A stretch of 64,000 nucleotides of DNA, from assembly GCA_037176845.1 (NCBI GenBank), contig JAYKXP010000058.1, positions 186,001-250,000 on the forward strand, in the 5' to 3' direction. Below the pieces are notes generated by a model. That model was not told the origin of the DNA, ran no database searches, and saw nothing but the letters and a program-made list of their open reading frames with translations. The stretch comes from Paramarasmius palmivorus (Eukaryota > Basidiomycota > Agaricomycetes > Agaricales > Marasmiaceae). Made by a program: the position numbers and the translations under genes. Below are positions 16,211 through 46,971 of the stretch, piece by piece; positions within the stretch are counted from its first letter, which is position 1; every line of letters begins with the position of its first letter.

Positions 16211-16343
16211 TGTGCATTGGTGGTCGTTTTTGTAGTTATGGTGTTGTGTTGGGGGTGTGGTGGTGTGAGTGAGGTGAGGTGGTTGTGGGAAGAAGAAGAG
16301 AAGAGAAGGCGTTTGACCGTTACCGTTACCGCAAACTACCACC
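16211..16343. promoter_or_regulatory. Short divergent promoter between IRS4-like and ECM15 genes
   Basis: Only 133 bp separate the two start codons, so core promoters and 5' leaders must share this space. It contains a C-T/G-A-rich strand-asymmetric stretch (16240-16320), common in fungal promoters. No clear TATA box was seen. Confidence 0.5.
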
Positions 16344-23258: not shown

Positions 23259-24755
23259 ATGGCATCCATCCCTAAACAGCTGGCGCATTTTTTCTCCGTC
23301 GAACACATCGTTATCTCTACCATCTCCACTCTCTTGGTATGCATCGAATGCATTAACGTTACTACTGACACTGATGTTCCATGATCAGGCTATGTATTTT
23401 GTTTACGGTATGTGCCAAATCACAACGCCCAAAAAGCTTAGGCCAACTCCTATCTTAGGGACATACGTGCTTCTTCTTGGAACGTACCTGTACGTGATGC
23501 GACACCGCGAGCAAAGGCCTGTCCGTCGTGAGAATAGGCTCTATCTATGGCTAGCGGTTGCCCTTTTTATATTGTCTACCATGTTCGTCGTGGTTTATAC
23601 CATCCATCTTGTCACCGACTCCGTCACCTGTTTCGATGCCCTCACAACTGGAGACCACCGAGGATCTGCCAGATATATAACGCCTACCGATAATTTGGCA
23701 ATGGTAGCACTCGAGTAAGCCTCACGATTCCTGGTTTGATGTTATGGTGAATCTGATCCATTTCTTTAGCTGCTTTGCTAGCCTGATTCCTGTTCTCCTC
23801 AAGTAGGTGTCGGAATTTCACGCATTGAAGTGGGCTGACGATTTGATAGTATTACTGCAGATTGGTTGCTTGTGAGCATCTCTTTCTGCGCATTCTCAAC
23901 GCTTGGATTGACCGCAATTCCCGATTGTCAGATTCATCGCTGCTATACGATTTGGCTATCGGACAAACAAATCGGCGCAAGCTTGGCAGGCGCTTCAGTT
24001 CTTATAAATAGTAACTTTATCTCTCTTTCACCGTCCCGTCTACTGACATATTGACAGGTTTCGGCCTTGTTGGTGTTATTGTGATGTTGGTTGGCCTATT
24101 AAGGGCTGAAGGAACAGAGCAGTTAGATGATTGGGGAAATGATTTCTATGTTGTCTATTCAATAGGCAGCATTGCTATCAACTTCATTCTGACGCTCCTG
24201 ACTGGTGTGTCTTTTCAGCTCCTTCCTCTTTCCGCTTTCCTAACACTCTTGTTCCATGCAGCCGGACGCATCTGGTGGATTCACCGCCAAGTTCGTGTTC
24301 ACGGTATTCATACCAGTGACAGACTCGTCCAGTCAGTTTGTAGGATTGTGTGCGTAGTTCTGATTTGATTCTCGGAAACCCTCTCGTGTCTCATTGTTTA
24401 TCGGTTCGCACCTATAGCATCGTGTCAGGACTGCTTTACCCTGTTTTGCAACTTGTTGGTTTAGTCGCTTCCAACACCTCAAAAACGTTCCCGTTTGATT
24501 TCACCCCGATCTTTACCCTGAGTGCCGTGATTTTCCCCTTCTCTCCTTTCTACTGCATGAGGCTGATCAACGTCGATCTTTGATCAGGGAATTGCACCTA
24601 CACTCGCCATGGTCTACTGTAGACTGAAAACGAATTTCGAGAGCCTACAAACGGCGAGGAGCTCGAATGTTGAATCGAACAGTCGATCTGTCGCACGTAC
24701 CATCAACGTTGCTCCGACAGACGTTGTAATTGAGCTCCGCCTGATCCGAGCTTGA
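23259..24755 (+). CDS. 7-TM membrane protein, copy E
   Basis: Member of the copy F family and close twin of copy I: most exons and introns are alignable by eye, and both have unusually divergent tails. It starts MASIPKQLAHFFSVEH and ends VVIELRLIRA then TGA. Readable blocks are AMYFVYG, GTYVLLLGTYLYVMRHRE, NITADWLL, IHRCYTIWLSDKQIG, AGRIWWIHRQVRVHG and YPVLQLVGLVASNTS. Near the C-terminus the usual VRAKLGKNVE is changed to VYCRLKTNFE, a departure shared in part by copy I (ARAKLKTNSE). Splice sites look intact. Confidence 0.8.
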
Positions 24756-26226: not shown

Positions 26227-26235
26227 GCACCGCGC
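26227..26235. repeat. Left copy of the 9-bp direct repeat flanking the element (GCACCGCGC)
   Basis: GCACCGCGC lies 4 bp outside the left inverted terminus and recurs at 41976-41984, 5 bp outside the right one. Because the inverted termini line up best if the element starts one base earlier, the target-site duplication may be 8 bp (GCACCGCG). Confidence 0.65.
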
Positions 26236-26239
26236 AGAT

Positions 26240-26310
26240 AGCCGCGTGTGAAAAGACCCGGAGTGACCATCCCCGCCTTTTTTTGTTTGGTATACACGCC
26301 CGCTCACTTT
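26240..26310 (+). repeat. Left terminal inverted repeat of the element
   Basis: Begins AGCCGCGTGTGAAAAGA and ends GCTCACTTT. By eye it matches the reverse complement of 41899-41970 in order and spacing, with conserved blocks at the outer 17 bp, at CCGCC (middle) and at the inner GCTCACTTT. Confidence 0.65.
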
Positions 26311-26409
26311 CTGTTCCTCTCGTCACGACGTAATGAACTTGTACTGCCATTACAATTTTGTATCTGAGTTCTTGGGAACCGTAAAGCACAAACTTTGAAG
26401 ATCACGGCA

Positions 26410-27680
26410 CTCGAAAGGATTCAGTCACGACGAACCATTTCCACACACAAAGAGTGTCAGTAGACCATTTCTCACATGCCGGTGATCCTGCATTTCAGGT
26501 GTGACACCAATAGGTGAGTGCTATTGAACCCAATTTCGTCCTTGGCCCTGATGTTGGTTCATATAGACTATTTTACTCTTCCGCCATATGAAGTTGGGTC
26601 TCCTAAACCATTATCGTGACCAGCAGCACCTTCGAAGTCAGTCTATACATACCGTTTTGGATCGGTGAGTTCAATACAACTCATTTCCGACATGGATGCT
26701 GAAGTCGGTTCAGACAGACTATTTCTATTATGCCTATCTCAATTCGGTATCTCCAAACTATTCCTGTTTCGCCTCCGTAACCTCAGAATCAGTCTTCCTG
26801 GACCCTTCTGACTCGGTGAGTTTGACCATACCGATTTCCGTTGCTCGTGCTAAATTCAGTTCGTTAAGACTATTTCAACGTCTGCAGATACAAGTCAGTT
26901 CCAATGAACCATTATGGCGCTCAGCAGTGATACCGCAATGCGCCCCGTGAAATCAGTCTATACATACTCTTTTGCTTAGGTGAGTTTAATAAGACTCATT
27001 TCCGACATGGATACTCAAGTCGGTTCAGTCAGACCGTTTCGATCATGCCCATCTCAATTCAGTGTCTCCAAACTATTCTTGTTCGCCGCTGCACCCTCTC
27101 AGAATCGGTCTCCCTGAACTCTTCTGACTTGGTGAGTTCAGACATACTGATTTTTATCACTTGTGCTAAACTCAGTTCATCAAGACCGTTTCGACCTCGG
27201 CGAATACAAGTCAGTTCCGATGAACCGTTATGGTGCTCAACAGTGATACCGCAAGGTGCCCCCATGAAATCAGTCTATCCATTCCCATTTGCTGAGGTGA
27301 GTGCAACAAGACTCATTTTTGACACTCATACTAAGGTTGGTTCATACAGACCATTTTGCTCGCTCTATGCCAAGTCAGTTTCTCCGAACTATTACCGCGC
27401 CACCAATAACCCTTGGTGACTTCCTGAATTCAGTTTATCTAAACCATTCCCCCTTAATCAGTGCGACCAAACTCATTTCTGACCCTGGTACTAACATGGG
27501 TTCATACAGACTATTTCGCTTACCTGTATCTCAAAACAGTTGTCCTAAACCATTTCCGTGTAGGCCGAAGGATATTGGTTCAGGAAAACTCAACTGCTAC
27601 TGTGAGTGCACACAAACTCTTTTCAAGATCATGTAATGATATCAGTCTGTACAGACCGTTCTGCATTCAACTCATTAGGC
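26410..27680 (+). repeat. Left subterminal repeat array (~315 bp units of ~45 bp submotifs)
   Basis: Units of about 315 bp begin near 26686, 27001 and 27317 (for example TTCCGACATGGATGCTGAAG and its variant), followed by a shortened unit to about 27680. Within units a short motif of the form CAGTY-N5-7-GACYRTTTC recurs roughly every 40-50 bp, and stretches starting GGTGAGTTT recur. The same motifs in reverse orientation make up the array at 40.4-41.8 kb. Open frames inside are by-products of the repeat. Confidence 0.7.
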
Positions 27681-27821
27681 CTGGCTCAGATACAACAGCC
27701 CATCATGCACAATGCCGTCGCGAGCACCACATTCAAGACCATGATACTCTCTTTGACGAGGATGAGAAAAAATCCTACGCACTACTGGGCAATGCTGGGC
27801 GTAAGCCATGACTGCAAGAAA

Positions 27822-27910
27822 GCCATAGCCGGATTTGAACTCGCGACATCATCAGTTCGCGGACATACAACTCGCGGCACGCGCACCGACTGCACCGAGA
27901 GGCCCATGAC
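27822..27910 (-). other. Degenerate tRNA-like sequence / possible SINE head
   Basis: On the minus strand there is an A-box-like D-arm (GTGCAGTCGGTGCGC, with a GTGC/GCGC stem) and a B-box-like T-arm (GAGTTCAAATCC), about 55 bp apart. Outer 7-mers GTCATGG and CTATGGC can pair with wobbles. An extra stretch before the D-arm and mismatches in the T-stem argue against a working tRNA, so a pseudogene or tRNA-derived SINE fragment is more likely. Confidence 0.35.
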
Positions 27911-28044
27911 ATTCCAGGAAAACATCCGATCCACGGCCCTCTGTGTACGGGCGAGCCACTTTCAAGGCTTCAGCTCTGCGCCTCATTTTTTTGTCATCCC
28001 AATCTCAATCCGCATACTCCATGGGCTCTTCCCTCAGCATTGTC

Positions 28045-29555
28045 ATGGCTCAACTTTCCCGAGACATCGAAAATCTTCCCCCGTGTCCCAAGTGAGTGAT
28101 CTCATCTAAAAAATCAGGATTTGCCGTTAATGCTTGTATCTCAGACCCACAGATGACTGGAACGTCAACAAGAACATGGCTTCCCTGCTCTTACTTGAGC
28201 TGCAACCACTCCGACACCGCCTCAAACACTTTCAAAGTATGTTCCCCGAGGCCGACTACAAAGATCTTCGACGTCAACTTCGAGATCGATACCAGGAGGT
28301 TCGGCGACTTTCCTCTCCCATCCAGGGCTGTCCACTGGAAGTCATTTCAGCAATACTTTCATACGTCGTTGAGCCGGTGGTCCTCACCGAAATCACGGGT
28401 ACTTGGGGTGGAGAGGACCGCCTCGCTCCCTTGTATCCATGGGCGTATGTCTCGTCTAAATTTCGGAGAGCCCTTCTTACCAATCCACAACATTTCGACC
28501 ACATTGTTTTTCATCGCTACGCTCGTTGTACTGGAGTCGACGTACACCGTCCTTCTCTCGTCGAAATGCTCAACTTCTTCCTGGGCCTTTCCGGAGTGCT
28601 ACCTCTCCATATCAAGGTCGTCCTTGCCTTCCAATGGGGAGATGAAAATAGCACCCAGGCTCTTCTTCCAGCATGCCCCATCATCGACCAACTCCTGCAG
28701 AGACCGTGGAAATCTTTGGACATCCAAGGATCACCCAGACATTCAACCATCACATTTCTTCACGGGATCATCCCTCGCATTCCGCCCAATGTATTAACAC
28801 AGTTGGATCTTCACATTACAGAAGGACCCACTAACGACTCGTATAGAGCATTATCCCGCCTCCCCAGTACCATCACGACACTTCGGCTCAGTTTCGGAAG
28901 TGTCTACCCCGACTCTGGCGTGTCATTTTCAATTTCTCTGCCCCATATCACTGATCTGCGCGTTCGCGGATGTGTTCGGTCTATCTTTACCGTGCTGATA
29001 GGCTGCCCTCAGGTACAGCGTCTTGAAGCGGTCATGGTTGGCAATGACATGCCGGAATGGGATCTTATCGTTGAGATGCCAAGCGTTGAGCGCATTTGGG
29101 CCTCTGTAGAGTCGTATCCCGGACACGAGTTACTTCCGTTCTTTCGTTACCTCCGTGCTCCTTCCACCAACAGCATCGTCGTTTATTGGAACATTGGTCT
29201 ACCTCAGCGTACTCCCGGCCTTTCTGTCGCCATGGACAAATTTATATGGCCTCTGGACGATTTAACAGAGCTCACGCTCCTCAGGACACCCTTCTCCTTT
29301 CAAGAAGCGCGCGCAATGATGGGATCTGCCACCCGGCTGTTTTACGCATCAGCTGACACGTATCGATGGCGATTTTCATCGTTGGGGAGATATGAGAATT
29401 GGGCATGGACGAAGGCAGGCAGTCCAGTTGGGGACTCTGACTCGCTTGCGTCATCAGTCGAAAATGAATGGGGTAACCTGACGAGCCCTAATGATCCTTG
29501 GTCGCATAATCCTTGGACGAGCACTGATGACCCGAGGGACTATGGTAGTTACTAG
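28045..29555 (+). CDS. F-box-like protein (agaricomycete type)
   Basis: Two exons, 28045-28091 and 28145-29555, giving 485 residues. Exon 1 encodes MAQLSRDIENLPPCPK and exon 2 continues PTDDWNVNKNMASLLLLELQ. A helical region with LRRQLRDRYQEVRRL precedes the F-box-like core SPIQGCPLEVISAILSYV at about residues 65-82, the layout of the large agaricomycete F-box expansion (coil, then a P-[IL]-P/C-x-E-[IV] box). The remainder is leucine-rich and repeat-like without clear motifs. F-box proteins recruit substrates to SCF ubiquitin ligases; the substrate is unknown. It lies just inside the left array, as putative cargo. Confidence 0.8.
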
Positions 29556-29805
29556 CTCTGGACCTACTTCGATACGTATTGTTAGGTGTATCTCATTTTG
29601 AAAATCATAGAGAATTCTGCGGAAGTTCGGTGCTTAGAGCGTCAAGAAGCGCGTAGATACAATGTCTCAAAATTGATTCCAGAATTCGATTGGAGTAACT
29701 ACGTTCCCGGCTTAAAGTAATCTGACCATGCGCGCCTCAATCAAGCATCAACCCCCGATCTCGCAGCCGTCTATGTTTTTCCCATCAGAATCAGAAACAA
29801 TGTTA

Positions 29806-30422
29806 TCAATGATAGATGGAAACATACCTCACAACACGCCTGGCTATGTCTCGCTTCGCAACTGCCGACATATCGCCTATATCCCTTGGCTCCCCGTCTG
29901 ATGTTGAATATGCAACAACCAGAAGTGGGCCAAGATAGACTGTTGGACCTCCTACGCAACTATGCAGCAAAACATTGAAGTCCTTGGCCATGTCCAGTAG
30001 TCTACTTTTTTGAGGCCAAAAGAATGCTCGATACTGGATGCCAGGTGTATGTGAACACAGAGCCAGCCAGTCTGGCTGATGGCCCTCGTAAGGGGGAAAC
30101 CAGGCAAGTGTGGAAACATCGTCAATGTGATATGTTTCGGGTTCTCTTTCCCGAACCGGAACTTGCACGGTGTAGACATCGTCGCACATAGTACCCCAAT
30201 ACAATGCCTTGATTGACCGCGGAAAACCCTGTTCCTGTATCAGTATAGATCTGAACCGATTTGAAAGGACTTGCTTACACAGGAATGGCCTTCCAGAAAC
30301 TTGAGACATGTGTTCACCGCTTCAACCACGTGGATCGTATCAGGACCTTGAACCAGGGATCGCGTTGGATCGGGTATGTGCATTAACATGGTGTAGGGGC
30401 GTAGAATGAACTTGAATATCAT
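29806..30422 (-). CDS. Hypothetical protein, 190 residues
   Basis: Two exons in phase 0, 30422-30279 and 30234-29806, joined by a GTAAGC...ATACAG intron. The product starts MIFKFILRPYTMLMHIPDP and includes EQGFPRSIKALYWGTMCDD, WFPPYEGHQPDWLALCSH and GGPTVYLGPLLVVAYSTSD. No signal peptide or membrane segment is obvious. I do not recognise the family. It is convergent with the F-box gene and lies inside the candidate element. An extra 3' exon beyond 29806 is possible, since a GTATGT donor lies shortly before the stop. Confidence 0.5.
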
Positions 30423-30530
30423 ATGTAGCTCAAGGCAGTGTATATATACATAAAAAAAGGTTTAGACATACTCAAAAAATCTATATACAGACACATGTAT
30501 AGAACGTAGAGCAATTCATGCACAAAAACT

Positions 30531-33202
30531 CTAATCTTCGTCAATTTCAATATACTTCAACATTTTGCGACCAGCAGATGCCTTTCCCGAGGAGCCTTCC
30601 TTGACAGGAGAACCAGGAGTAGGATCTGCATCGGCAGACCAAGAGGGCAGCGTGACGGTGACAGGCAAACCCACTGAGATCTGCATGCGACTGATTGAGA
30701 TGTTGGTGATGTCAGCCGGATCGCGATGCTTCCAATGGCCCTTCACCGAGACCATGCTATAGCAATCGTAGACAGTTAGCTTTGTCCCTTCACGCCAAGA
30801 GGCCAGATACAAAGCACGCTGGCGAGGCCTCACCCAATCTGTGTTCCAACCCTCGGTTCTCGCCATCGTCGGTGATGTCAACTTCCCGGTCTTGAATAGA
30901 TAGAAATCCAACAAGACATCGTCAACGTCACAGCCACAGTCCAAGGCCTTGGGGTGACGGCCCTTGACCCGCTTCCACCACCAGGGAGACCACGACACAC
31001 AGTGCAAAGGATCCATCTCCCGAATGTCAGGCTCTTTCTCTTTCTCATCTTCCGATGACGAGGAAGCGTCTTCATCTTCACGACCGACCGCGTTGTTATC
31101 GTTAGCCGCCTTCATTGCCTTGGTAACGCCAGGCCAGGGCGTGCCGTAAAGTTCTTTGTCGTTGTCGAAGCGGCGTCCAGTGGTCTTCTCTGTCTGGGTG
31201 TGGAATCGGCACTTGGCAAAACCCTTCTGAGAAGTAAGGGCAGCAAGCGCAATTTCCCAAGATGATGTAGCAGCTTCCGGGATAGTGGAGGAGTGTTTGA
31301 GGACATAAGTCGTTAGGCCTTGTGAGACCTTTGGAATGGATGATGGGCCTGCAGTCTTCTTGCACCTCAGGAGCCAATTCTTAGCCGATTCTATACAACG
31401 GTGAGTTCATGCACAATACCCGGATGTCAAATAAAGACTTACTAATTGTACGGGGTGGGACCTCACCCGACAATGGATCGTTTGTCTCTCTGTTGATATC
31501 ATCTTCGTCCTCAGTAGGAGCTGCAAGGTATTATCCTGAGTTGGCATGGTGACGAACAAACGATCAGATACCCTTACCTTTATTCTTGCCTCGATTCACC
31601 TGGCTGCTTGACTTCGTCGGGCGTGCGCTGTCCTCGGCGGTGTCCTCAGCGGCAGCTACAAAGCCAGAATAAATGATTTGTTGTGAAAATAAAGAGAATG
31701 ACAACATACCTTTCCCTTTCCCTTTCCCTTTCCCTTTACCCTTATTCTTTCCGTTCGGGGGGCCAGACTGATCAGAGACCGCATTTGCATCCGGGTTAGG
31801 AGTAGCTGAAAAGGAATGCATGAGGTTGGTTTCTTCTTCGATGGAATGAACATACGTTTGGTCTTCTTTCCCGATTTTCCTTGCGCTGTTGCCGGTGCCA
31901 TTTGCTTATCAGTGACGTCGCCATCATTGGAGGGCACCTCGGCGGCTACTGTCTTGACGGACTCTGTTGATTCCATGGGCATCGGATCTGAATTGTTGAC
32001 GACGCCTGCAAAGCAAATCTATGTCAAAATCAACTCAGCCAGTCGCAGCAAGATGGGTTACCTTTGGCCTTCTTCTGAGGCCGTGTTTCAGCCTGGGTGT
32101 CTGAGCCAGTACGCTTTCTGGTGGGACCGTCGTTTGCTAAAAAAAGAAACATAGAATTAGAAAATTCGACCTAGCATAACACGGATAAATTGGCGTACCG
32201 TTTGTGTTGCTGCCGTTGGCTTGACCTCCTTTACCATCTTCGGAACCGGGTGGCTTCTCTGGAACTAGGGGAGCCGCAGCACTTTGGTCCGAACCTAGAA
32301 CAGTATCAGTATGTCCTAGAGTATATACTATGTACAAACAACACGACTTACCGTTGTCTCCGGCAGTAGTTGAGGGCGCGGCGATTGAATTGTCTGTGGA
32401 AAAAAAATTCAATAAGAGAAAAGAGTGACAACGAAAAAATTCTCGCACCATTGTCAGCAGCACTGGCTTGGTGCGCGTTAGAAGTGCTGGTGCAGGCGTC
32501 GTCCTTGTCATCACCACCAGTCGAAGACGGATTTGCAGACGCCACAAGATCTGATGACAAGGTGTATACGTTAGGACTTGTGCCAGCAAAAAAAAGACGA
32601 CGCCTCACCAGTAGTTTGGGATGGATCCTCAGACTGAATGCCGTCTGGGAGGTCGGACAATTCAGAGAGGGCCGGGCTGGATGGCTCAGCCGCTTTGACG
32701 CCCTCCCGCTTCATAGCACGAGCTAGAGGGAGACAGTTAGATCCAGTGATTATGCATAGGTGAGTGCTTACTCCGGGCGGTTTTGTACACGCCGACCAGC
32801 TTCTTGGCCTGATTCAGTTTGCGACTAGCAGCTTCGGCGAGACCCTTTTTTATCTTCCACTCCTCGACGGCCTCGTTGTAGCGGTGTTCAGTAGTCTTGG
32901 TCTTTTTCATATTATGTTCCTCTTTTGCACGGCCACGGCGACGATCAGCTGCGCCCGCCTGTGCAATGTGAGCCTCCCACTCTTTCTGCAGGGCCTCACA
33001 TGTCGCTTTAGCATCGGCATACGCTAGAAATCCCGTCAGCCATGGTCTAACTGTTGACAAAGGGTCTCTCACCAGCAGAAGCTTCTGCCACCGTCATGGC
33101 GGTAGCAGGTGCCGTCGTGTTAGCTGAAATAGAATGTAATATTAGTGGCGAGAAAAAGGTAGATACCGTCAGAATTTTACCTTTTTTCTTCTGACCGGCC
33201 AT
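30531..33202 (-). CDS. Multi-exon orphan protein: coiled-coil N-terminus, low-complexity middle, conserved C-terminus
   Basis: About a dozen short exons can be followed. The start at 33202 reads MAGQKKK; exon 3 is a charged helix (KEEHNMKKTKTTEHRYNEAV, EEWKIKKGLAEAASRKLNQA) likely to form a coiled coil. Then come many 15-50-residue Ser/Thr/Asp/Gly-rich exons, one ending in a GK repeat (KNKGKGKGKGKGKG). The last exon is ordered and aromatic-rich (LHCVSWSPWWWKRVKGRHPK, TEGWNTDWVRPRQRALYLAS) and ends MLKYIEIDED. No known domain recognised. Middle exon borders are uncertain. The modular low-complexity exons suggest growth by exon duplication. Confidence 0.55.
31709..31740. repeat. CCCTTT hexanucleotide repeat inside an exon
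   Basis: Five perfect or near-perfect copies of TTTCCC on the plus strand, encoding alternating Gly-Lys on the minus strand in the orphan gene. Length variation here would change the protein without shifting the frame. Confidence 0.8.
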
Positions 33203-34038
33203 AGTGAGATTGGGAAGGAGAGACGTTCGAGAAGTCAGTTGGGAGGTGGTGGTGAAAAGAAAAGTGGCGATATACCCTGAGAAAATGGGCAACAAGATAC
33301 ACCAGAATGGTAAAAGTTCCCAGTGCGCCATGCGGATGGATAGGATAAGTCTGAATGACACCGTGGAAGGAGCTTGACCATTAGGGGATGCATGGAAAGC
33401 GAGATTTGCCAAGGTTGTCCTGAGTATTCCCTTTTGATGCTGGAGGACGGGTAGATAGTCGTACATCCACCAGGCATTGCAAATGCAATGCCTGGTGGTC
33501 GTCAAAACGAACCAGGGACCACGGAGAAAAAGCACGATGCACAGCAACACGTGTTTCACTGGCCCTGCAAGCTGAGTCAAACAGTTGACATCACTCAGCG
33601 CTTGCAATCTCACCACAGCGAGTTCGGATTTATTCCAAGTTGTTTCTGTGTTCAAGAATACATCTTCTTGCCGTCTTTAATTACAACAGGAAAAGATTCT
33701 GTGATAGTATTTGAGTGTAGTCTACACCCTTCTCCCTCAACGCAAGGTCAAAGTGCTTGTGTCGCAGCTATCGATTACAGAAGTGAATTAGCCGCTCGTC
33801 AGGCGCTCACCTTCGACTTTTCAAACGTTCATATGTCAATGAGCCTCTACTGCGATGGGTTCTGGGCTGGAGAACCCAATGTAGAGTTATAACAGAGCAC
33901 CATATTCAAAAATCTAAGTGATTGAAAAGGGTAAGAAAATGTGGTGCAGACGCACCTTGTAAGTGTTAAGACACAGCTATCACAAAGCTAGATTACACGC
34001 TAACTCTTGTTCTCACCTTCATCCGTCTTGCTTCATCA
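33203..34038. other. Spacer with a perfect 14-bp hairpin
   Basis: Shared 5' flank of the orphan gene (minus) and the basic-protein gene (plus). Open frames of 134 and about 200 codons exist but show no family resemblance and partly run across the orphan gene's first introns. The main structural feature is the hairpin at 33467-33498. Confidence 0.45.
33467..33498. repeat. Perfect 14-bp inverted repeat with 4-nt loop
   Basis: CCACCAGGCATTGC, then AAAT, then GCAATGCCTGGTGG. It could be a protein-binding palindrome or a remnant of a small foldback insertion; nothing in the context decides. Confidence 0.75.
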
Positions 34039-34873
34039 ATGCCTCGTCAGAAGACCCGTTCTAAGGCAGCCATTCAAGCAGCTAACCGCCTCAAGGCCTC
34101 CAACTATTACTACCGGTTAGTGAATATGCGTAACTTCCTTAGAAGTCATTCTCAACTGATTACAGGAACCGCGAAACCATCCTTGCCAAACACCGAGCTC
34201 TCAGAGAACATGCTAAGCGTAAAGAAGAGGTTGCTAGGTAAGTCTATAGCCTATCTTGGCTTGTTCTCCACCTTACCGGCGTGCAGATTCAAGACGACAA
34301 AAGAGAAAACTCAGATGCGTTTCCAGAAGGATCAAGCAGGAATAGGCAAGGATGCCACCTCATTCTTGTTCGTCACACAATGTACATGTACAGATCTACA
34401 GCTGACGTTGATTTGTGTACCCAAGGGATCCACTTGGTCGCTTGCGTCGGTTGAAGAAGAAGATGGCATCGGACACCGGAGGCTCAGTCAGCGGGTACAT
34501 CAACAACGCCTTCCACCTGACAATGCAAATACGAAGCTCCGGCTCCCAAGCAGCCTCCACTCCTCTTTCCAGAGCATATGATATGTTCATGCAAATACTC
34601 TCCCAGATTAACCGCCTCGACGACCTTGTTCTCAATGACCATGGTGCCGGTAAGGAACACCAGCGGGTTCAGGCGTTCCGTGAGCAAGTTCGGTGGATCA
34701 TTCGCTGCCTTGACGACATCGACATGTATATTTTGGATCCCGATGCTGATCCACGCAAGGCCTACAACGAAGGAAAGCTGGCTTTCCAAGATCCAGGGAA
34801 TCAACAGTTTATTGATGGTTTCACGGGTGCACCTAAGATAGAATACATGATGAATATTGGTCGCTCTGTTTGA
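34039..34873 (+). CDS. Hypothetical protein with basic, bZIP-like N-terminal helix
   Basis: Starts MPRQKTRSKAAIQAANRLKA. Exon 1 ends before a GTTAGT donor near 34116; exon 2 encodes NRETILAKHRALREHAKRKE; exon 3 starts RFKTTKEKTQMRFQ. The last exon, in another frame from about 34415, encodes MASDTGGSVSGYINNAFHLT, INRLDDLVLNDHGAG and IIRCLDDIDMYILDPDADP and ends IGRSV. The basic, arginine-rich repeat recalls short basic helices common in agaricomycete orphan proteins; DNA binding is only a guess. The intron between exon 3 and the last exon could not be placed with certainty, so the gene may be broken there. Confidence 0.45.
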
Positions 34874-34989
34874 TTTTCATATGTTAGCTATGGTAGTAGA
34901 GGGGTATGCGACAATGGACTTGTGCAATGTCGACGAACTAGGTGTTAGGACTGGTGTGACCTATGTGACATGTAACATTTTTACCCTTG

Positions 34990-35290
34990 CTAATCTCTTC
35001 CATGGTGCAGACGGATGAAGAAAAGAAACAGGCCAATAAGGTGGCCTGTGCTAAATATCGTGAGCGGTACGTTTACTGTGATTTTTACAAGTGCTATAAA
35101 TTCTGAAGCTTGCCAGACATGCTCAACTAATTCGAATGCGGTCTCGGGAACGGATGCGGCGATATCGCATGAGGGGCAAGGTTTTGCGGTATGTGGCCTT
35201 TGATTTGTGGGGCAACTCTCATACCGAACAGCTTTTAGTGCCAATGGAGGCGAGCAGAAATGTCCACCGCGACACCGGAGGTTGAAGGAC
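34990..35290 (+). pseudogene. Partial second copy of the basic-helix gene
   Basis: Follows an acceptor-like GGTGCAG near 35012. It reads TDEEKKQANKVACAKYRER, then after a likely intron (GTACGT...TTGCCAG) HAQLIRMRSRERMRRYRMRG and stops soon after. The arginine-rich helix resembles the NRETILAKHRALREHAKRK block of the upstream gene. No start codon or C-terminal part was found, so it looks like a fragment or a missed exon set. 35291-35577 shows nothing recognisable. Confidence 0.35.
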
Positions 35291-35577
35291 GGGTGCGCGC
35301 TGCCAGTGCCGAATGGGAACCAGTTGCTAATCATTCCTCGCAGATCCAATAATGAATCCTCCCCTTTGCCAACACCTTCTCCCACTATATCCTCACGAGT
35401 ACCTCCGGTTCTGACATTCCGCCACTGGAACGATTCACCCCATTATATTTCACCTCATCATTATCCTTATATGTGCCAAACACATTGCAATCGGGCTGGC
35501 TAAAGCCAGTGATGCTTGTTCACAGTTCATATACGTTGTATTATTATGCTATCTTAATGCTATGTCACTGCTTTCGT

Positions 35578-36835
35578 CTACGCAACATTTATACCTGCCG
35601 CTTCCAAAGCCACGCGATATTCCTCTGCCCTCTTCAGTGCGGCCTCCTCGGCTTCCTTGGCGCGTGTTAGTTCATCCCGAGCCGTCTCAAGGTCGGCTGC
35701 AATTTGAGAAGCATCACGTCGACGAGCGGCTTGCAAACTGGAGTACATCCGTTTTGATGCTTGGTGCACGGAGTCCATGAGTTCACCACCCTCGCTGCGG
35801 AGTCGTTCTGAGGTGTAATGTATGAAAGGATGCTGAGACGTGGGTAGCTGTGCGTTGAAGTACAACCAACATCCCGTCTCAGTTGCAAGGTCCTCGAGCT
35901 GTAGAGGCACAATAAGCTTGAAAAGTCGGATCAACAAATGGGATAAACTTGCTACCTTGGTCATAAGCGACCGCGTGCGGTCGTAAAAGCGTTTTGGGAC
36001 GTTGAGCTTGCCAATCTTGCCGGGATTTATAGCCTGGCGAGTTCGGAAACATGCTGAGATACTCATACATCAACAGCCTTTCCATCACGGGGAAGAGCTC
36101 ACTCACATAAGTGTCTAGTTCCACGATAAACCCCTGTCACGTGGCCAAAGATAGGCTTCTTCTTGGATGCACGTTCCCGCCGACTAGGGGTACTAGAAAC
36201 ACTGGAGGGTGTATCTGAAGACATCGACCTATGCCCAGGAGAATGCTGTTCATCCACCAAGTTCATGGAACCTACGGAAGTTGAACGCTGGCGCCGAGGT
36301 GTCTGGAAAAGCGAGCTCTGGGGAGATGGAAGAAAGAGGGGCTGTGAGGGTGCAAGAAGGTCTGGATCAATAGGAATGGCATCCTGTCGCAGGAAGTGAA
36401 TCCAAAAGTCCAAATGAATGGGGTTAATACATACGTCATCATTTATAGTGGGCGCAGCCTGGCTCACTGATTCATGAGGTGGAGGTCCTGGGGGATCGAG
36501 AGATGAGGTATTTGCGCCGCCAATAGACCGAGATTCTGGGTCATTTGACGACATAGGTGGTGGATTTGGTGGGCTCGACGCGTCGACCTGCTGCCCGGAA
36601 CTAGACTAGTATGTTCAGCTACCTGAGATGGGGTAGAGTAATGGAAAACTCACTGAGGACGTGTTTTGAGAGTCCTTTCTCTTCTGCGGAAAAAGTTAGA
36701 AAAAGAAAATACTAAAGTAGGTACACGTACACCAGACGTTCTACCACGGCTGTAGGTAGGACATTCCTTCATAAGATGAACTTGAGGGAGACATTTGCGA
36801 CACATGCGCTGTCTTTTGGTGATCTCAGAAGACAT
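35578..36835 (-). CDS. Zinc-knuckle / coiled-coil protein divergent from the transposase
   Basis: Minus-strand multi-exon gene. Exon 1 (from 36835) reads MSSEITKRQRMCRKCLPQVH, LMKECPTYSRGRTSG, with a Cys cluster (C-x2-C, then C) like a small zinc knuckle. A Pro/Ser-rich middle follows (SSPPNPPPMSSNDPESRS, TPRRQRSTSVGSMN), then KRFYDRTRSLMTKVASLSHL and a C-terminal coiled coil (LETARDELTRAKEAEEAALK, ending EAAGINVA). No known enzyme domain. Its start is only 78 bp from that of the transposase gene, so the two probably share a promoter, suggesting an accessory role in the element. Exon borders near 36100-36650 are provisional. Confidence 0.55.
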
Positions 36836-36913
36836 AGTGGTGGTATAAACGGAGGATGAAAGGACATGTTGTCGCGCCTTATCAAGCGCGGTGATGATTA
36901 GTCAGCAAAATCA
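36836..36913. promoter_or_regulatory. 78-bp divergent promoter of transposase and zinc-knuckle gene
   Basis: The whole interval between two divergent start codons is 78 bp, which requires a shared bidirectional promoter and very short or overlapping 5' leaders. It contains a small inverted motif, GCGCCTTATCAAGCGC. No TATA box is evident. Confidence 0.5.
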
Positions 36914-39900
36914 ATGGCAAATTGGGACGACGACAACGAACCGTTTATTCTAGAGCCTTTGCCTGATACAACCCAGGCTCCAGAGGCATATCCTGGTCAC
37001 CTCAACCACTTCATTCCAAGTCCTGTGCGTTCATATAACACGAATCGTAATAAGCGCCGAGCCCAACGTAAAGGAGAGAATGCATTCAAGCGCCGGAAGA
37101 ACACGGAAAACATCAGCGTCTCAGACTCCAATGGCGGGACACCTGGATTGGGCAATATGCTACCAACAATTGACGAATGCGAAGTGCCGATAGCAACTAT
37201 TGATCCTGACGTCGACGAGAATCCCTTTGTGGCTGAACCACTCGCAGTGGAGGATACGGACGGAGACGATACATATCAGGAATTTGTATCTCTTGTTGAG
37301 GACCAGTGTATATCCTTTGTCCATGTAGCAACTCGGGTATATGTGGTCGAAGGCTTTGATGCTAGAAAAAAAGAGGGGACAGTATGTCATTCTCCATCAT
37401 GGCAGTTACAGAGTGGGTGACTAACCGCGTACACATCCTAGGGCCTTTTCTATCACTTTGAGGCTAGGAAAAGGGGTACTGCTCTAGACCTTGTTTGTCA
37501 GTGTCCTGGAGGAAAGGACATTTGCGTCCATCGCCAATTCTACGAAGAATTTAGAGAAACACGCTTTGCTGCACAAGAGGCACATTTGGATCTTGGTGAG
37601 CCATACAAACCGGATGATCAGAGATCATGCGTGAACTTACAATCTACAGATGGCGATGTGGTGTGTTTCGCACGTATCCAGATAGATGTAGAGAAGGATG
37701 TCTGGATTAGCCGGTTCTCTGTGGCGGGCGGTACAGCCTCTGACACTGGGCGTAGTCGTGCAATTGTCACCTTCGAAGGAGTAGGGTCAGGCGCCGGTAA
37801 ATGGCAGTGTTCCAAGGACCGAGACTTACACCGAACAGAATGTGCCCACATGACACGTGCAAAGAAGCTCCTGGACCTCATTACAGGTAATGCAGGGGCT
37901 GAGGTGGGAGAGGATGACATTAGCGACAAGATGTATATGGGTGAGTGGGTTGGCTTGCATTCACGAGAGATGTCTGACACTGGTCTAGTTGATGGAATGA
38001 ATGCAGGCGGGAATTCTGAGAGATCCATCTCTTACCTTCCAATTATGCCTCCGCGATGGGCACTACTGCCCGAAGATGAGATACTATATCCGTACCCTCC
38101 ACCAAACGCCGATTTACCAGAGTTGCTTGCGCTCGATGAACAATCTCGAAGCTTTTGCGGCGAGCATTTCTTCAACCCCCAAGCGCCAAAGTTGCAGAAG
38201 GACTGCACAGTGTATACACTCACCCATACTGTACTTCGGAAGGTGGAGTTGCAGTGGTGTCCTGGTTGTCCACGGCGACGCCAGTGCTTCATAGGACCTG
38301 AACCACGAGCCCTGGGATTGTTTAACTACAACAACTCAGTCATGTTCACCCACGAACTGATGGACGAACTCACAAGCCGATATACCAGTAGCGAGACACC
38401 TTTCACTGCTTTCGTTCAGGCTGTGGATCGGCTCTATACTTCCCGAGGATGTCGTTTTGTGGGCGAGGATTTATTCCGTTCAGCATGGTTTGCGTTTGCA
38501 ACCAACCAGGAACTGAAGAACGATATGTCGTGTTCCGAGTGTGGGGTACATCCAAAGACTGTTGTCTGGGATGGAGTGACTATTTCCTTTGCGAAGCGAC
38601 ACCTCAAGGACACCCTGCAACCTCCCACGTGCATTACGAAGAATGCACCGAAACGAAAACGGACGCGGGTGCATAAACAACAATGGCTACCTCACGCAAA
38701 CGATAAGACAACGCCGGTGCGAAAGCTTCTTGTGAACTGGGTACGAAAATGGGGGGATAAAAAGCCTGCTGAAAGTATGACCAAGGCCGTAAACGTGGAT
38801 GTGGAGGCGTCGTCAGAGGAAGAAGACATTGAGCTATCAGCGAAAGACAGCGGCATATCAGAGACGACAAGGCGCAACGGGGAATTCCAGGAGGTAGAGA
38901 GGCGTTTGTTGGAGATAGGGGCTGCGCCAGTTCGAGATCTCCTCGTCGAGGTGTATGGTACAGGTGGTGACACCCTACATTGGAGATTGCGTAAACGGTA
39001 CAAAATGCTGTTGGAACAGGTACGTCAGAACATATCAGAGGAATGAGTGACTAATCGAACCTTTTAGATTGGGGCTGAGGAGTCCGTGTTGCAGATGGTC
39101 AATGAGAAGGGACTGAGAGCACTGAAAGCATTCGTGGAATGTCCTGATGCTAATAGCATTTCGCTACTAACCGATATCCCGGTCCTAATGATGATCCTAG
39201 AGCATTTAACCCACAGCCAGAAAAGTATAGCGTCGCTTGTAGCATTGTCCAAGTGGATGATACAGCGAGTAGAGGCTGTACTTTCCCAGCTCAAGAACAA
39301 GCACGATGTACCGTTGCAAAGACTACCGATGGGAGAGGTGACAACAGAAGACTGGCGGAAGGTGAGTTCGGATCGGAGATCAAGGTGACACTGCTCACCA
39401 TGAATTATTCGATGATAGACGGGGTGCTGTTACGGCTTTCCGCAAATCCGTTATCGCCCAGCTTATCCAAACATATCTGGCGACGCAGAGCCTGAAAAAG
39501 ACGTGAAGAGGGGCGGTCAATGCTCGAAGTATTATTCGACATACAGCGAGCGGAGACTCACTGGGGGCATCCTATGTGCATGGTGTACCCATAGTATATG
39601 CTATGGTTTCCATTGTATTCCGAAGGGAGAGGGAAGGAACGACGTTTTCTCTGCCATGGTTACTCGTTGGCCTAAAGCGCCCGAAACAGTGATCTATGAC
39701 TTCGCGTGTGCCTTGGGACCATACTGCCTAACGAGGGAGCCTGAGTTCTTCTCGGAGACACTGTTTGTGGTAGACCGGTTCCACGCCAAAGGTCACACTA
39801 GATGCTCCTCGGCTGCCTTTCTCTCAACATACGGCGAAGTCAACGGTGAGGTGGACAGAATCAACTCGAGTGCGGCGGAGTGTGGAAATAGCGGGATGAC

Positions 39901-40012
39901 ACGCATACGAAAAGCTGTCAGTTATATGCGTCAGAACAGGGCTATCCTATACACCAAGCATTACCTCTCCATTTGGAATAGGGTGCGGATACGCAAGATG
40001 CGACGTCTGTAG
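36914..40012 (+). CDS. KDZ-type transposase-like protein (CxC cysteine-cluster group)
   Basis: Four exons in phase 0: 36914-37381, 37442-39019, 39068-39361 and 39419-40012, giving 977 residues without stop or frameshift. The N-terminus is acidic/basic and disordered. Then come a cysteine cluster (VCQCPGGKDICVH, about residues 174-185), a SWIM-like WQCSKDRD...ECAH (277-292), WCPGCPRRRQC, FNYNNSVMFTHELMDELTSR and SCSECGVHPKTVVWDG. The last exon has CSKYYSTYSERRLTGGILCA, WCTHSICYGFHCIPKGEGRN, VIYDFACALGPYC, FVVDRFHAKGHTRC and SSAAECGNSG. Such proteins are annotated in agaricomycetes as KDZ transposase-associated CxC-cluster proteins. Asp in YDFAC, Asp in VDRFH and Glu in AECGNSG are candidate catalytic acids (inference). 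It looks intact and possibly active. Confidence 0.75.
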
Positions 40013-40389
40013 GTGTAGATAAATTTCGGGTATAGAGAATTGAACGAAGGATATAGCTTACCGGTCAAGTCAAGTCATTTGAACTAGGGAGGCGGAGAGT
40101 CACAGAAAAGAGTTTGAGCGACGGGAATTCTGGAGTAAGAGTGTGAGCGAACCCAAAGCGGGTGTGCACGGAGTTTGGAATTATATAAGAATTCTCCACG
40201 ATCAGGTGATAGGGGCGCTACATCTCATTGGCAAGTGAAAAAAATGGTAGGGCACGACCGTTTCGTAAAACATGCCTACACACATACATAGCATCGGTGT
40301 ATCTCTCTTGTATGGTAAGCGGAAATGCAGTTCCGGTAAATATATGTTTCGTTGTACTTCATAGCAAGTGGTATGTCAAGACTGCATCT
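40013..40389. other. 3' flank of the transposase gene
   Basis: About 380 bp of non-repetitive sequence between the transposase stop and the right array. It would hold the terminator; no gene is seen. Confidence 0.5.
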
Positions 40390-41760
40390 GGTCTGTGGGG
40401 AATAAAACAGTCCTGGTCGACTGATCCGAGACTGCTCCTGTTCGAAAGAGTTCATTGGAACCGACTTCGGTAGGCCTGGCTAGAAATAGTCGATATAAAC
40501 TGAAATAAGCATAGGCCTCGAAAAAGAGTCCGAGAAAACTCACCTATGATACCTGACAAACAGTATCACAAAACCGTATTCGATGCATTGGGAATAAAAC
40601 AGTCCTGGCCGACTGACTTGGTTGGAGGTGAGCGAGAGGCACGTCGTGGCATAAAGAGTTCATTGGAACCGACTTCGGTGGGCCTGGCTAGAAACGGTCT
40701 GTATAAACTGAAATGAGTGCTTGCTTCGAAAAACAGTCCGACAAAACTCACCTATGATACCTGACAAACAGTATCGCAAAACCGTATTCGAGGCATTGGG
40801 AATAAAACAGTCCGGGTCGACTGACTTCGTGGGATGAGACCCGAGACTGCTCCTGTTCGAAAGAGTTCATTGGAACCGACTTCGGTAGGCCTGGCTAGAA
40901 ATAGTCGATATAAACTGAAATAAGCATAGGCCTCGAAAAAGAGTCCGAGAAAACTCACCTATGATACCTGACAAACAGTATCACAAAACCGTATTCGATG
41001 CATTGGGAATAAAACAGTCCTGGCCGACTGACTTGGTTGGAGGTGAGCGAGAGGCACGTCGTGGCATAAAGAGTTCATTGGAACCGACTTCGGTGGGCCT
41101 GGCTAGAAACGGTCTGTATAAACTGAAATGAGTGCTTGCTTCGAAAAACAGTCCGACAAAACTCACCTATGATACCTGACAAACAGTATCGCAAAACCGT
41201 ATTCGAGGCATTGGGAATAAAACAGTCCGGGTCGACTGACTTCGTGGGATGAGACCCGAGACTGCTCCTGTTCGAAAGAGTTCATTGGAACCGACTTCGG
41301 TAGGCCTGGCTAGAAATAGTCGATATAAACTGAAATAAGCATAGGCCTCGAAAAAGAGTCCGAGAAAACTCACATATGATACCTGGCAAACAGTATCACA
41401 AAACCATATTTGATGCATCGGGAATAAAACAGTTCTGGCCGACTGACTTGGATGGGGGTGAGCGAGAGGCACGTCCTGGCGGAAAGAGTTCATTGGAACT
41501 GACATCGATGAGCTCGAAGAGAAATGGTCGATATAAACTGAAATAAGCATAGACCTCGAAAAACAGTCCGACAAAACTCACCTGGTGCAGACAAACAGTG
41601 TCTCAAAATGGTACGCGGAAATCAGTTTGAGGCGACTGATTATGGTAGGTGAGAGGAAGAACAGTCAGGGAGTGCGAAAAGGTTCATCTGAACTGACCTT
41701 GAAGTGAATCCCGAAAACAGTCCCCACAAACCGACCCCCTAACGTGCCTCTCAAAATGGT
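40390..41760 (-). repeat. Right subterminal repeat array with identical 415-bp higher-order units
   Basis: Two block types alternate: one of about 186 bp (40566-40751, 40981-41166, diverged copy from 41396) and one of about 229 bp (40752-40980, from 41167). The 415-bp composite is repeated with no difference that I could see between about 40441-40855 and 40856-41270. On the minus strand each block starts GGTGAGTTTT and contains TTCAGTTTATA and GTTCCAATGAAC, the same succession found on the plus strand of the left array. Identical open frames of 61 codons inside are products of the repeat, not genes. Confidence 0.85.
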
Positions 41761-41898
41761 TCCCTAGCACTGAATATCCAAGCATGCTATTACCGTTCTT
41801 GTAATGAGAGCGCTGAAATAGTCTGAGGAAACCGAAAGTTCTTTGTATGGGCCAAACAATCATATGTAACATAATTCCGCATGGCATCACCACAGCAA

Positions 41899-41970
41899 AA
41901 AGTGAGCCCGCGGGTAAGCATATCTTCATCTAGGCGGCCATGCCCGTTCCTGCTCTTTTCACACGCGGCT
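41899..41970 (-). repeat. Right terminal inverted repeat of the element
   Basis: Its reverse complement begins AGCCGCGTGTGAAAAGA and has GCTCACTTT 63 bp further in, matching the left terminus at 26240-26310. Confidence 0.65.
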
Positions 41971-41975
41971 GCCCC

Positions 41976-41984
41976 GCACCGCGC
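41976..41984. repeat. Right copy of the 9-bp direct repeat (GCACCGCGC)
   Basis: Same orientation and sequence as 26227-26235. Together they bracket the element as expected for a target-site duplication. Confidence 0.65.
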
Positions 41985-45097: not shown

Positions 45098-45778
45098 TCA
45101 CGAATCAGAGCTTTCCGCGGTGCCATCTGAGGGTCCTGATAGTGATGTTGGCGCCAATGAAGCATTGCAAACGTTTTTGTGCATCTCGAGTCCCCTCTGA
45201 GACGAGAAGTACTGTGAACATCGCGTACACGTCCACTGGCTTGGTTTCCCGTGCTGGGTGACTTCATGTCTCCAGCAGTCGTGTTGCCTGGAGAAGCATG
45301 CGCCGCATCCCACAGTACATCCGTATGATTTCTTGTCCTTTGGTCGATGTGTCAACATATGAGCATCTCGCGTATAACTGCTCGTGAAGACTCGGTTGCA
45401 GTTCGGCTTTCTACAAGGGAAGTTTCGTGGGCGCTTTCGTGTCCCCGATGATGATGACGACGATGACGACGGTGTTTCTGCGGCAGCGGGCGAGTCGTCG
45501 ACATCGAGTGACTTTGGTGTCATAGCAGTTGACAATGAAGAGCTGTTACTAGTACATGGCGATGGAATTTCCAATGAACTGTCCGAACGAACAGCAGGAT
45601 CGAACGGCGAATGACCAGTATTCTGGAGTCCTTCGTTGTTGTTCATACCAGCGCGTGATGTATGCCGCACAGAGGTGGTTGTAACCGGCATGTTCCCGAA
45701 TGAATGATGGTGAAGAAAGTTGTAGCTAGGGCTCGAAACGAACCCGGGAGGATCGGAGGGTAACATGAACGAGGTCAT
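45098..45778 (-). CDS. C2H2 zinc-finger protein, probable transcription factor
   Basis: Single-exon frame; I chose the start MTSFMLPSDPPGFVSSPS (226 residues), since the frame's earlier ATG at 45877 adds an atypical leader. The N-terminal half is Ser/Thr/Pro-rich with a poly-Ser run. Three fingers follow: FPCRKPNCNRVFTSSY...HMLTH (C-x4-C-x12-H-x3-H), YGCTVGCGACFSRQHDCWRH (the Cys-rich second finger common in fungal factors) and WTCTRCSQYFSSQRGLEMHK ending in Cys rather than His (C2HC). The charged tail ends TAESSDS. Likely nuclear DNA binding; targets unknown. It is convergent with copy F, with only 145 bp between their stops. Confidence 0.8.
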   Translation of the reverse strand: MTSFMLPSDPPGFVSSPSYNFLHHHSFGNMPVTTTSVRHTSRAGMNNNEGLQNTGHSPFDPAVRSDSSLEIPSPCTSNSSSLSTAMTPKSLDVDDSPAAAETPSSSSSSSSGTRKRPRNFPCRKPNCNRVFTSSYTRDAHMLTHRPKDKKSYGCTVGCGACFSRQHDCWRHEVTQHGKPSQWTCTRCSQYFSSQRGLEMHKNVCNASLAPTSLSGPSDGTAESSDS

Positions 45779-46971
45779 GCCTAGGCTGCCTGTGTATAAT
45801 ACTAAGTCCCCACTGATAGATAAGCAGCTGACGCGGTTCAGGCTCACCCATATCACTTCCTTTCTGGGGTAGCGCATTGGAAGGCATACCCTCGAAACGT
45901 CTTAACGAGCTTAAGGGGCCTTGTCTCGAACCATCTGCAGGAAGGTTGTCATAAAACCGCTTGAAGAGGACAGTTTGACGTACCGAAGTAGATGTGATTC
46001 TCGTTCTCGATATAATCCGACGGAGCTCGGCACGGCTCTGAAGGAGCTGCTGGAGTTTTTTTGTCAACGCTCTGCCATGTCTCTTTTTGAAAAACCACTT
46101 ACCGGGCCATTGTGCTGTTTGAGTGACGACAGGCTTTCTTGAGACGGAAAGTGTCAAGCCACCACGACCCTCTTTCACAACGTCAAATTGTATACTTGAG
46201 GGCATCTGAGATGCATTGCACTCTGGCTTCAAGAACGCATCTGGGAGTAGTGCTTTAAGCTCGAAGGAAGGCCGCATTGAGAAGCCGCCGCCAGGGATGA
46301 GAATCATCAGCTGATATACGTCAAGTGCTTGTAGTGGCAGCGCGAATGACATGCTCGTCTGAATCAGTCTGTGAAGAATCCAGAGGTAATCGCGGGTACA
46401 CGCTAGTGTCCAAAACTGGATGAGGTGTTGAAGTGGATTCAATAGGCATTATTTAAAGAGAACCTTGACAGCACTTACTTATAATCAAGACCAACAACGT
46501 CGGAACATTAAGTAATTGTGCATTGTAAGCCCTCAGCTTACAGCTATCCGATATCGTGAAAACCCTAGAGACTCTCGAAAAAAAGCGTGCACTCTTACGT
46601 GCCAATCGTGTCCCACTCCACATGCTTGCCCTTTTGAAGCAAGTGCACGAGCGTCGCGACTCGAGAGCCTCGAAAGCCCCCTGGAAGCTCCAACAATGAA
46701 TTGGGGGTAGCCGGGAGCCCTCAGCAAGTGGAAGTAAAGGTAAGCGTGCTGGCGTGATAAGCGACTTAACGGGGGATGCTAAGACGGGAGGGCGGCTATC
46801 AGTCATTTTGAGTACATGACGTGACCGGAGCACTGGGAAATGGTGGTGGAAGTTATGTGAAAAAATGCCCTGCGCAAGGGACCCCTTGAGGGCAGGGCGT
46901 AGTGTAGGGAGGCGCAAGGCTTGAATAAACTGGGCTTGCAGGAGGAGTCGTTGTCGAAGGAGCTCGACCAC
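45779..46971 (-). other. Open frames upstream of the C2H2 gene, uncertain hypothetical gene
   Basis: Two long minus-strand frames lie here: 46971-46453 (MVELLRQRLLLQAQFIQALR) and 46442-45726 (including IQFWTLACTRDYLWILHRL and QFDVVKEGRGGLTLSVSRKP). They could be exons of an unrecognised gene or the long 5' leader of the zinc-finger gene, which the second frame overlaps. A TATA-like box at 47025-47036 sits about 55 bp upstream of the first ATG. Confidence 0.3.

Follow-up and report, generated by a model that had tools for sequence, protein, structure and literature searches.

Limits, target duplication and copies of the element

A stretch of 64,000 nucleotides from the mushroom Paramarasmius palmivorus (assembly GCA_037176845.1, contig JAYKXP010000058.1, here C58:186001-250000), called the window and numbered from its first letter, very probably carries a complete cut-and-paste multigene DNA transposon of a divergent branch of the KDZ (Kyakuja, Dileera, Zisupton) group. 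At the level of sequence, movement of this element is strongly supported by its defined ends, exact 8-bp target site duplications, complete copies elsewhere in the genome and a homologous site without the insertion. The genome searched comprised 68.3 Mb on 393 contigs. The window copy is labelled W; the other complete copies are E183, E35, E32, E4 and E42, the first three of them on contigs C183, C35 and C32. The limits and terminal features of W are:

26235..41975, plus strand: complete element, 15,741 bp, limits from homology breaks against the C183 and C35 copies and from the duplication
26227..26234, no strand: left target site duplication copy, 8 bp, GCACCGCG, abutting the element start
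41976..41983, no strand: right target site duplication copy, 8 bp, GCACCGCG, abutting the element end
26235..26310, plus strand: left terminus, tip CAGAT, inverted core AGCCGCGTGTGAAAAGA at 26240-26256, inner block CTCACTTT from base 69
41899..41975, minus strand: right terminus, tip GGGGC read inward, inverted core at 41954-41970, inner block from base 70
26422..27660, minus strand: left subterminal array of the motif AAnAGTn7AAACTG, 31 minus-strand sites, mostly 28-45 bp apart
40137..41834, plus strand: right subterminal array of the same motif, 37 plus-strand sites, largely within 208/415-bp tandem units

W starts with CAGATAGCC and finishes with GGCTGCCCC; the edge sequences read CAGATAGCCGCG at 26235 and CGCGGCTGCCCC at 41975, with GCACCGCG outside each. 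The initial annotation had described a 15.7-kb element with inverted termini and an 8-9 bp duplication directly outside both ends. The element and its termini were borne out, with defined ends at 26235 and 41975, and the duplication proved to be exactly 8 bp. The ninth base that W shares between its two sides belongs to the element on the left, where it is the first base, and to the flank on the right; E183 and E42 do not share this base, and a 9-bp duplication was rejected on that ground. E183, alone, matches one extra base on the outer side of its duplication. Second copies of the termini and further insertions with a duplication, for which a genome search had been proposed, were both obtained: E183 (20,516 bp, duplication ACCTTTGC), E35 (16,496 bp, GTAGGCAC), E32 (15,908 bp, CAAGTCCG), E4 (19,057 bp, CACATAAG) and E42 (17,936 bp, GATTTTTT). 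An exact 8-bp duplication, each with its own target sequence, was present in all six complete elements (15.7-20.5 kb). When the ends of the six elements were slid against each other as a control, an exact 8-bp match appeared in none of the 9,840 shifted registers and in all six true ones. In E32, E4 and E42 one end each was found with the aid of the duplication, thus these boundaries are not fully independent of it; the shared tips are independent.

Both ends of W contain a perfect 17-bp inverted core (AGCCGCGTGTGAAAAGA on the left, its reverse complement on the right), separated from the duplication by five bases that differ between the sides, and both contain an inner GCTCACTTT block. The arrangement first noticed, shared terminal and inner sequences in inverted orientation at equal spacing, holds to within one base (69 vs 70). 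Eleven of the 12 ends of the six elements have C[TC]CAC[AT]TT with its first base at position 68-70 counted from the tip, and the twelfth, the right end of E4, has by eye a one-base variant of the inner block. The left tips follow C[A/G]GATAG and the right tips, read inward, GGG[G/A]CAGCCGCG. In E42 a 1.15-kb near-identical inverted repeat lies inside the outermost 18 bp, which differ. Since the E42 tips differ though the next 1.15 kb are near-identical, the tip difference seems to be maintained; the consistent difference between left and right tips suggests separate roles of the two ends.

Further inward, a position weight matrix for the motif AAnAGTnnnnnnnAAACTG located 31 minus-strand and 15 plus-strand sites in the left 2 kb of W, 37 plus-strand and 11 minus-strand sites in the right 2.2 kb, and 9 sites in the interior. 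The total of 103 sites compares with a mean of 12.7 over ten local shuffles, the matrix having been trained on the W arrays themselves, so that this total is no independent test. Sites in the main direction (left/right) numbered 31/37 in W, 31/27 in E183, 35/40 in E35, 31/32 in E32, 11/21 in E4 and 19/18 in E42; sites in the other direction 15/11, 15/8, 14/11, 11/16, 8/11 and 14/13, in the same order. The strand bias is clear in the four close copies (W, E183, E35 and E32) and weak in E4 and E42.

Empty sites

When joined flanks were used as query, matches were obtained on contig C41, spanning the joint (94 %), and at C32:22675-22935 (98 %). On C41, 2,800 bp of the left flank including the duplication were found at C41:415789-418619 with 91 % identity and 2,000 bp of the right flank at C41:418620-420632 with 93 % identity. 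The flanks abut at the insertion point (418619/418620), where C41 is contiguous and has a single target copy, GCACCACG, one base off the W duplication. The empty allele suggested by the initial annotation was encountered here: on this homologous contig neither the inner genes nor the duplication is present, and it is no relative that keeps the genes without termini and direct repeat. C41 and C58 have more similar stretches in collinear order; C41 is probably the other haplotype, or it may be a segmental duplicate. Two 1.3-kb stretches of the window, 23435-24745 and 60473-61787, are 86 % identical, and the pair is present on C41 too. The C32 match is the empty site of the E32 insertion, with a single CAAGTCCG, on the same contig as E32 and about 30 kb off.

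The transposase and the recurring gene set

Seven genes, of which one is tentative, were modelled within W; exons were joined by hand at frame-keeping GT..AG sites.

28021..29555, plus strand: G1, tentatively F-box-like protein, 493 amino acids (aa), exons 28021-28091 and 28145-29555, open in the four close copies
29806..30389, minus strand: G3, orphan, 179 aa, exons 30389-30279 and 30234-29806, at 10 of 21 complete clusters
30531..33202, minus strand: G2, 671 aa, 13 exons, conserved C-terminal domain of unknown function at 31388-30531
34039..34873, plus strand: G4, small gene with Arg-rich N terminus and conserved open reading frame (ORF) 34412-34873, splice model uncertain
34995..35521, plus strand: G5, tentative small basic gene, model uncertain
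35578..36835, minus strand: G6, zinc-knuckle-like, 328 aa, six exons (36835-36731, 36683-36654, 36590-36435, 36383-36107, 36053-35956, 35898-35578)
36914..40012, plus strand: G7, CxC4/KDZ-like transposase, 943 aa, exons 36914-37381, 37442-37595, 37650-37940, 37989-39019, 39068-39361 and 39419-40012

The transposase G7 was open in all four close copies (942-943 aa) with GT..AG introns at the same places. It matched CxC4 (PF18717) with E 9.5e-43, and this cluster occurred in 28 of 28 aligned relatives including the deposited window model. The spliced query for the CxC4 and KDZ scores was a 961-aa reading that included 18 residues of intron 37596-37649, on which the database matches are not expected to depend. 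The D/E motifs of the catalytic region resemble, as we take it, the KDZ catalytic motifs. Together with the CxC4 cluster, the 8-bp duplication and the terminal repeats, this resemblance argues for membership in the KDZ group. A KDZ match at E 0.01 or better was present in 7 of 28 deposited relatives, some of the deposited models being without the catalytic exon; the deposited W model runs into the last intron and thus lacks this exon, and it has intron 37596-37649. The ratio of nonsynonymous to synonymous substitution rates (dN/dS) was 0.085-0.102 in three of the six close-copy pairs; the synonymous rate (dS) was saturated in the other three.

Hits to G1, G2, G3, G6 and G7 formed 61 clusters, 21 with G1, G2, G6 and G7 and 40 partial ones. 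The order G1+ G2- G6- G7+ was kept at 21 of 21 loci holding all four, about twenty of them elsewhere than W. In ten distant relatives of G1 the frame is open over 405-564 codons. The cluster table used 63 of 83 rows for the transposase, 29 of 32 for G1, 34 of 35 for G2, 12 of 13 for G3 and 45 of 66 for G6, the remaining rows being further pieces on contigs already listed. Because the four genes recur together at 21 loci and G1 identity falls to about 24 %, G1, G2, G6 and G7 look like an old core set rather than recent cargo. The initial annotation had spoken of a gene-carrying element whose cargo might be transferred together. The multigene content and the joint occurrence, at 21 loci of the same genome, were found; recent passenger cargo does not agree with four genes recurring in one order. 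No captured host gene was seen, and no gene-by-gene comparison against host genes was made.

Side observations were made at three of these loci. E183 has a 4.6-kb stretch (element bases 14647-19283) that is not in the other copies and contains ORFs, which presumably resemble the end of a fungal Helitron-type helicase. In the C140 cluster a right-type terminus, CCCGCGGCTGCCCC, lies mid-cluster at oriented base 7365-7381, without a matching duplication being found; it is maybe the end of a nested element. In the C57 cluster an inverted right-type terminus is located at oriented base 94, on the F-box side, where a left-type end was expected.

The other element genes

The assignment of G1 as F-box-like is weak and comes from its layout and from the UniRef label 'F-box domain-containing' on two of three homologues. 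The C-terminal domain of G2 had 36-40 % identity to eight other loci with many invariant residues; by eye the protein has a helical-looking start and a low-complexity middle, and there was no significant match in Pfam or PDB searches. dN/dS of its last exon was 0.10 between W and E183.

G4 gave 51 hits, 47 of them outside the four close copies, and 26 of these 47 were located within 10 kb of a typical KDZ match, compared with about 4 % expected; the count is based on the complete set of 51 G4 rows and on about 150 of the 178 KDZ matches. This proximity suggests that G4 accompanies ordinary KDZ elements as well, and its position beside typical KDZ transposases links the divergent branch to the KDZ group. 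Its dN/dS was 0.09-0.11 when W, E183 and E35 were compared pairwise.

G6 has a CCHC-like N terminus with the pattern C-x2-C-x4-H-x4-C, kept with longer spacing in many relatives, followed by a conserved C-terminal domain and a long C-terminal helix. The deposited models at C183 and C32 have the same layout; the one at W is without the knuckle exons and keeps two introns. Among 24 database relatives, 19 were from Paramarasmius palmivorus, three from Moniliophthora and two without species label. W, E183 and E35, compared with each other, gave a dN/dS of 0.18-0.22. The C-terminal domain (35578-36000, minus strand) showed a weak, non-significant fold likeness to MADS-box DNA-binding domains that profile comparison did not bear out.

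In the dN/dS analysis, E32 G6, and in one run G6 and G3, gave no value (stops in the projected frame), and dS was saturated in most E32 pairs. As judged from substitution patterns, purifying selection was shown for the five measured genes (G1, G2, G4, G6 and G7) in most comparisons.

Two further ORFs of the window were noted outside the element. The one at 14504-16552 (minus strand, 683 aa) has an EH domain (E 1.6e-6) and is probably an ordinary host gene; the one at 45101-45901 (minus strand) has a weak C2H2 zinc finger match under the cut-off.

Mosaic copies and age

Identity between copies changes along their length. Between W and E183 it was 88-96 % from the left end as far as about 31.2 kb, then 70-88 % up to the end of the transposase gene, and 59-67 % in the right subterminal region. 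For E183 and E35 the left part gave 46-76 % and the right part 74-96 %, and E35 and E32 shared 78-90 % up to about 29.7 kb and less beyond. Quartet sites at 26235-29560 favoured W+E183 (597 vs 4 and 8), those at 33202-41975 E183+E35 (399 vs 92 and 95). In bins, W+E183 was favoured to 31.15 kb (292:2:3, 305:2:5, 92:8:20) and E183+E35 past this point (102:15:17, 116:33:42, 120:22:22, 163:37:31), thus the supported tree switches near 31.15 kb, inside G2. The tree switch and the identity shifts suggest that element lineages exchange large modules. Depending on the position along the element, the close copies diverge by about 5 % to 40 %, and 'recently active', as the element was initially called, has to be qualified by this divergence; exact duplications, an open transposase and the empty homologous site agree with it.

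Observations against a complete KDZ transposon and alternative explanations

Several observations weigh against a complete multigene transposon of the KDZ group. The end survey examined 14 of the 21 complete clusters, leaving out those on C10, C11, C179, C212, C30, C47 and C5: besides the six complete elements, one recognisable end was found at C193, C23, C140 and C57, and none was recognised with the patterns used at C87, C223, C19 and C356. The subterminal arrays, initially said to be of opposite orientation, are real and mainly opposite, and each includes sites of the other direction. The announced unbroken KDZ-like transposase is open over six joined exons and carries CxC4; its Pfam KDZ (PF18758) score was 24.2 bits for the last-exon ORF and 19.9 for the spliced protein, under the curated cut-off of 26.6. 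Among about 150 of the 178 KDZ matches, none was on C58, C183 or C35. The F-box, zinc-knuckle and orphan genes named in the initial annotation were found, the F-box and CCHC identities being sub-threshold. The G1 window protein had no Pfam F-box match and no significant match in a PDB profile search, and one of ten distant homologues matched Pfam F-box-like at E 0.012, under the cut-off; its AlphaFold model, with helices followed by alternating strands and helices, is of low confidence (mean predicted local distance difference test score, pLDDT, 50.5; 4 sequences). For G6 the best PDB profile match was a CCHC protein at a non-significant E 0.067, and the structure model had a low mean pLDDT of 60.1 (22 sequences; 82-85 at residues 11-30). 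G3 is present at 10 of the 21 clusters, and G4, by reading of coordinates, in complete clusters of the four close copies only. E35, whose ends are complete, gave no G3 hit in the genome search and matched residues 1-113 only of the 284-residue G2 domain query, thus G2 and G3 may be dispensable for movement. The two G2 pairs with E35 that gave a value had a dN/dS of 0.36 and 0.66, and the projected G2 and G3 models carry stops in other copies, from alignment error or real decay.

Rather unlikely, in our estimate, is a mobile core of transposase and G6 alone, with the F-box-like and other genes captured once from the host and carried as passengers. The most tabulated hits belong to G7 (63) and G6 (45), compared with 34 for G2, 29 for G1 and 12 for G3, with multiple rows possible for a single gene; G1 evolves faster than G7; and G1, G3 and G4 are not at every locus, the C35 copy being complete at its ends without G3. 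Against this reading, the G1 match is stop-free at 20 of the 21 complete clusters, with open frames of 330-577 codons (at C32 the match crosses an intron and has one TGA inside). The dN/dS of G1 was 0.222-0.320 in all six close-copy pairs. The genome search gave no relative closer than the three close copies, and 22 of 29 tabulated G1-family hits were within 25 kb of a transposase hit. It is in this narrow sense that the suggested spreading of F-box genes by the element holds.

Distinctly improbable is a non-autonomous or dead remnant mobilised by another KDZ transposase. Sources for such a transposase are not lacking in this KDZ-rich genome, with at least 178 KDZ domain matches of which many are without internal stops, and the divergence of the close copies as well as the C35 copy without a G3 hit and with a partial G2 domain would fit this reading; the low dN/dS of the transposase, where measurable, and its open frame in each of the four close copies speak against it. 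That segmental duplication or unequal recombination spread a family of host genes, and that the termini are coincidental low-copy repeats, is scarcely credible and was rejected: the genes are multi-copy and under selection, and the E32 empty site is on the same contig, but exact 8-bp duplications of different target sequence abut the ends of six elements, homology between close copies stops at these ends, and C41 is contiguous across the insertion point.

Proposed mechanism

For the complete KDZ-branch transposon, cut-and-paste movement by G7 is inferred from the ends, the duplication and the catalytic motifs. G7, with its CxC4 cluster and RNase-H-like catalytic region, would excise the element and join it to a target cut with an 8-bp stagger, recognising at each end the outer inverted core together with the inner block that lies some 69 bp from the tip. 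The subterminal motif copies may gather the transposase or an element-coded partner, for which G6 is a candidate, and gathering on the arrays could let two ends more than 15 kb apart pair. G1 might dock onto a host ubiquitin ligase so that a host factor for silencing or repair is removed, or it might keep the transposase dose in check; the role as adaptor of a host ubiquitin ligase is the most economical idea. G2 and G4 could be structural or targeting partners. The roles of G1, G2, G4 and G6 are hypotheses. Recombination would swap modules, the left F-box and right transposase modules having different histories.

More tentatively, and with considerable doubt, mushroom genomes may host a class of transposons built as small gene communities. 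Besides a transposase and DNA-end proteins, these would encode a fast-evolving F-box-like adaptor by which a host ubiquitin ligase is turned on silencing or rival factors, and recombination would exchange modules between lineages. If this were true, a part of the fungal F-box-like repertoire would be transposon equipment and not host genes.

Comparison with known systems

The Starships of ascomycetes are large and hold many genes, as W does. Starships use a tyrosine recombinase. No Pfam match to a tyrosine recombinase was obtained for 17 element ORFs and five spliced proteins of W, and the 8-bp duplication and inverted ends fit a DDE-type transposase; a Starship-like element was rejected.

Among the KDZ transposons, Zisupton and Dileera are reported to have an 8-bp target duplication and Zisupton terminal inverted repeats; Kyakuja has a 7-bp duplication, CA..TG ends and no inverted repeats (PMC12730594). 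The 8-bp duplication was present in six of six complete copies, and inverted repeats as in Zisupton occur as the 17-bp core and inner block of W and the 1.15-kb repeat of E42. A placement in Kyakuja was rejected, given the 8-bp duplication, the tips CAGAT/GGGGC and the presence of inverted repeats. W thus has the CxC cluster, the 8-bp duplication, Zisupton-type inverted repeats and accessory genes in common with the KDZ transposons as far as these are described there (PMC12730594). Mushroom KDZ transposons include ones with TET/JBP genes (PMC12730594); the same 17 ORFs and five spliced proteins of W gave no Pfam match to TET/JBP, a result that does not extend to the distant PE type, which was approached by structure comparison in PMC12730594. 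In contrast to these transposons, W has at least five other genes, one of them F-box-like, and a KDZ score under the cut-off.

An association of an F-box with a KDZ-type cysteine cluster is described for fish F-box::CxC7 genes, and one platyfish Zisupton isoform is noted to include an F-box (PMC12062965). Both domains are in one protein in fish, whereas in W a separate F-box-like gene lies towards the opposite end of the 15.7-kb element from the transposase. In sporeless Pleurotus ostreatus, a 6,792-bp CxC5/CxC6 insert in MSH4 is described, with no nearby KDZ transposon found and a Copia element suspected (PMC7641404); it is like W a mobile piece with a KDZ-associated cysteine-cluster gene, but of the CxC5/CxC6 and not the CxC4 type. 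KDZ elements and inverted-repeat motifs are also reported for the Marasmius oreades genome (PMC8290104). By titles and openings of abstracts, with most subscription papers outside the search, no multigene KDZ element with a separate F-box-like gene was found, and the main text of PMC12730594 does not use 'F-box', 'cargo' or 'accessory'.

Some orphan and F-box-like genes of the P. palmivorus genome become element genes, and in genomes of this kind some of what is counted as gene families may be mobile elements. The element provides ends and a transposase for a movement assay and makes testable whether transposon-encoded F-box-like proteins manage the host. The complete mushroom KDZ elements detailed in PMC12730594 carry TET/JBP genes; the elements of 15.7-20.5 kb described here carry a different recurring set.

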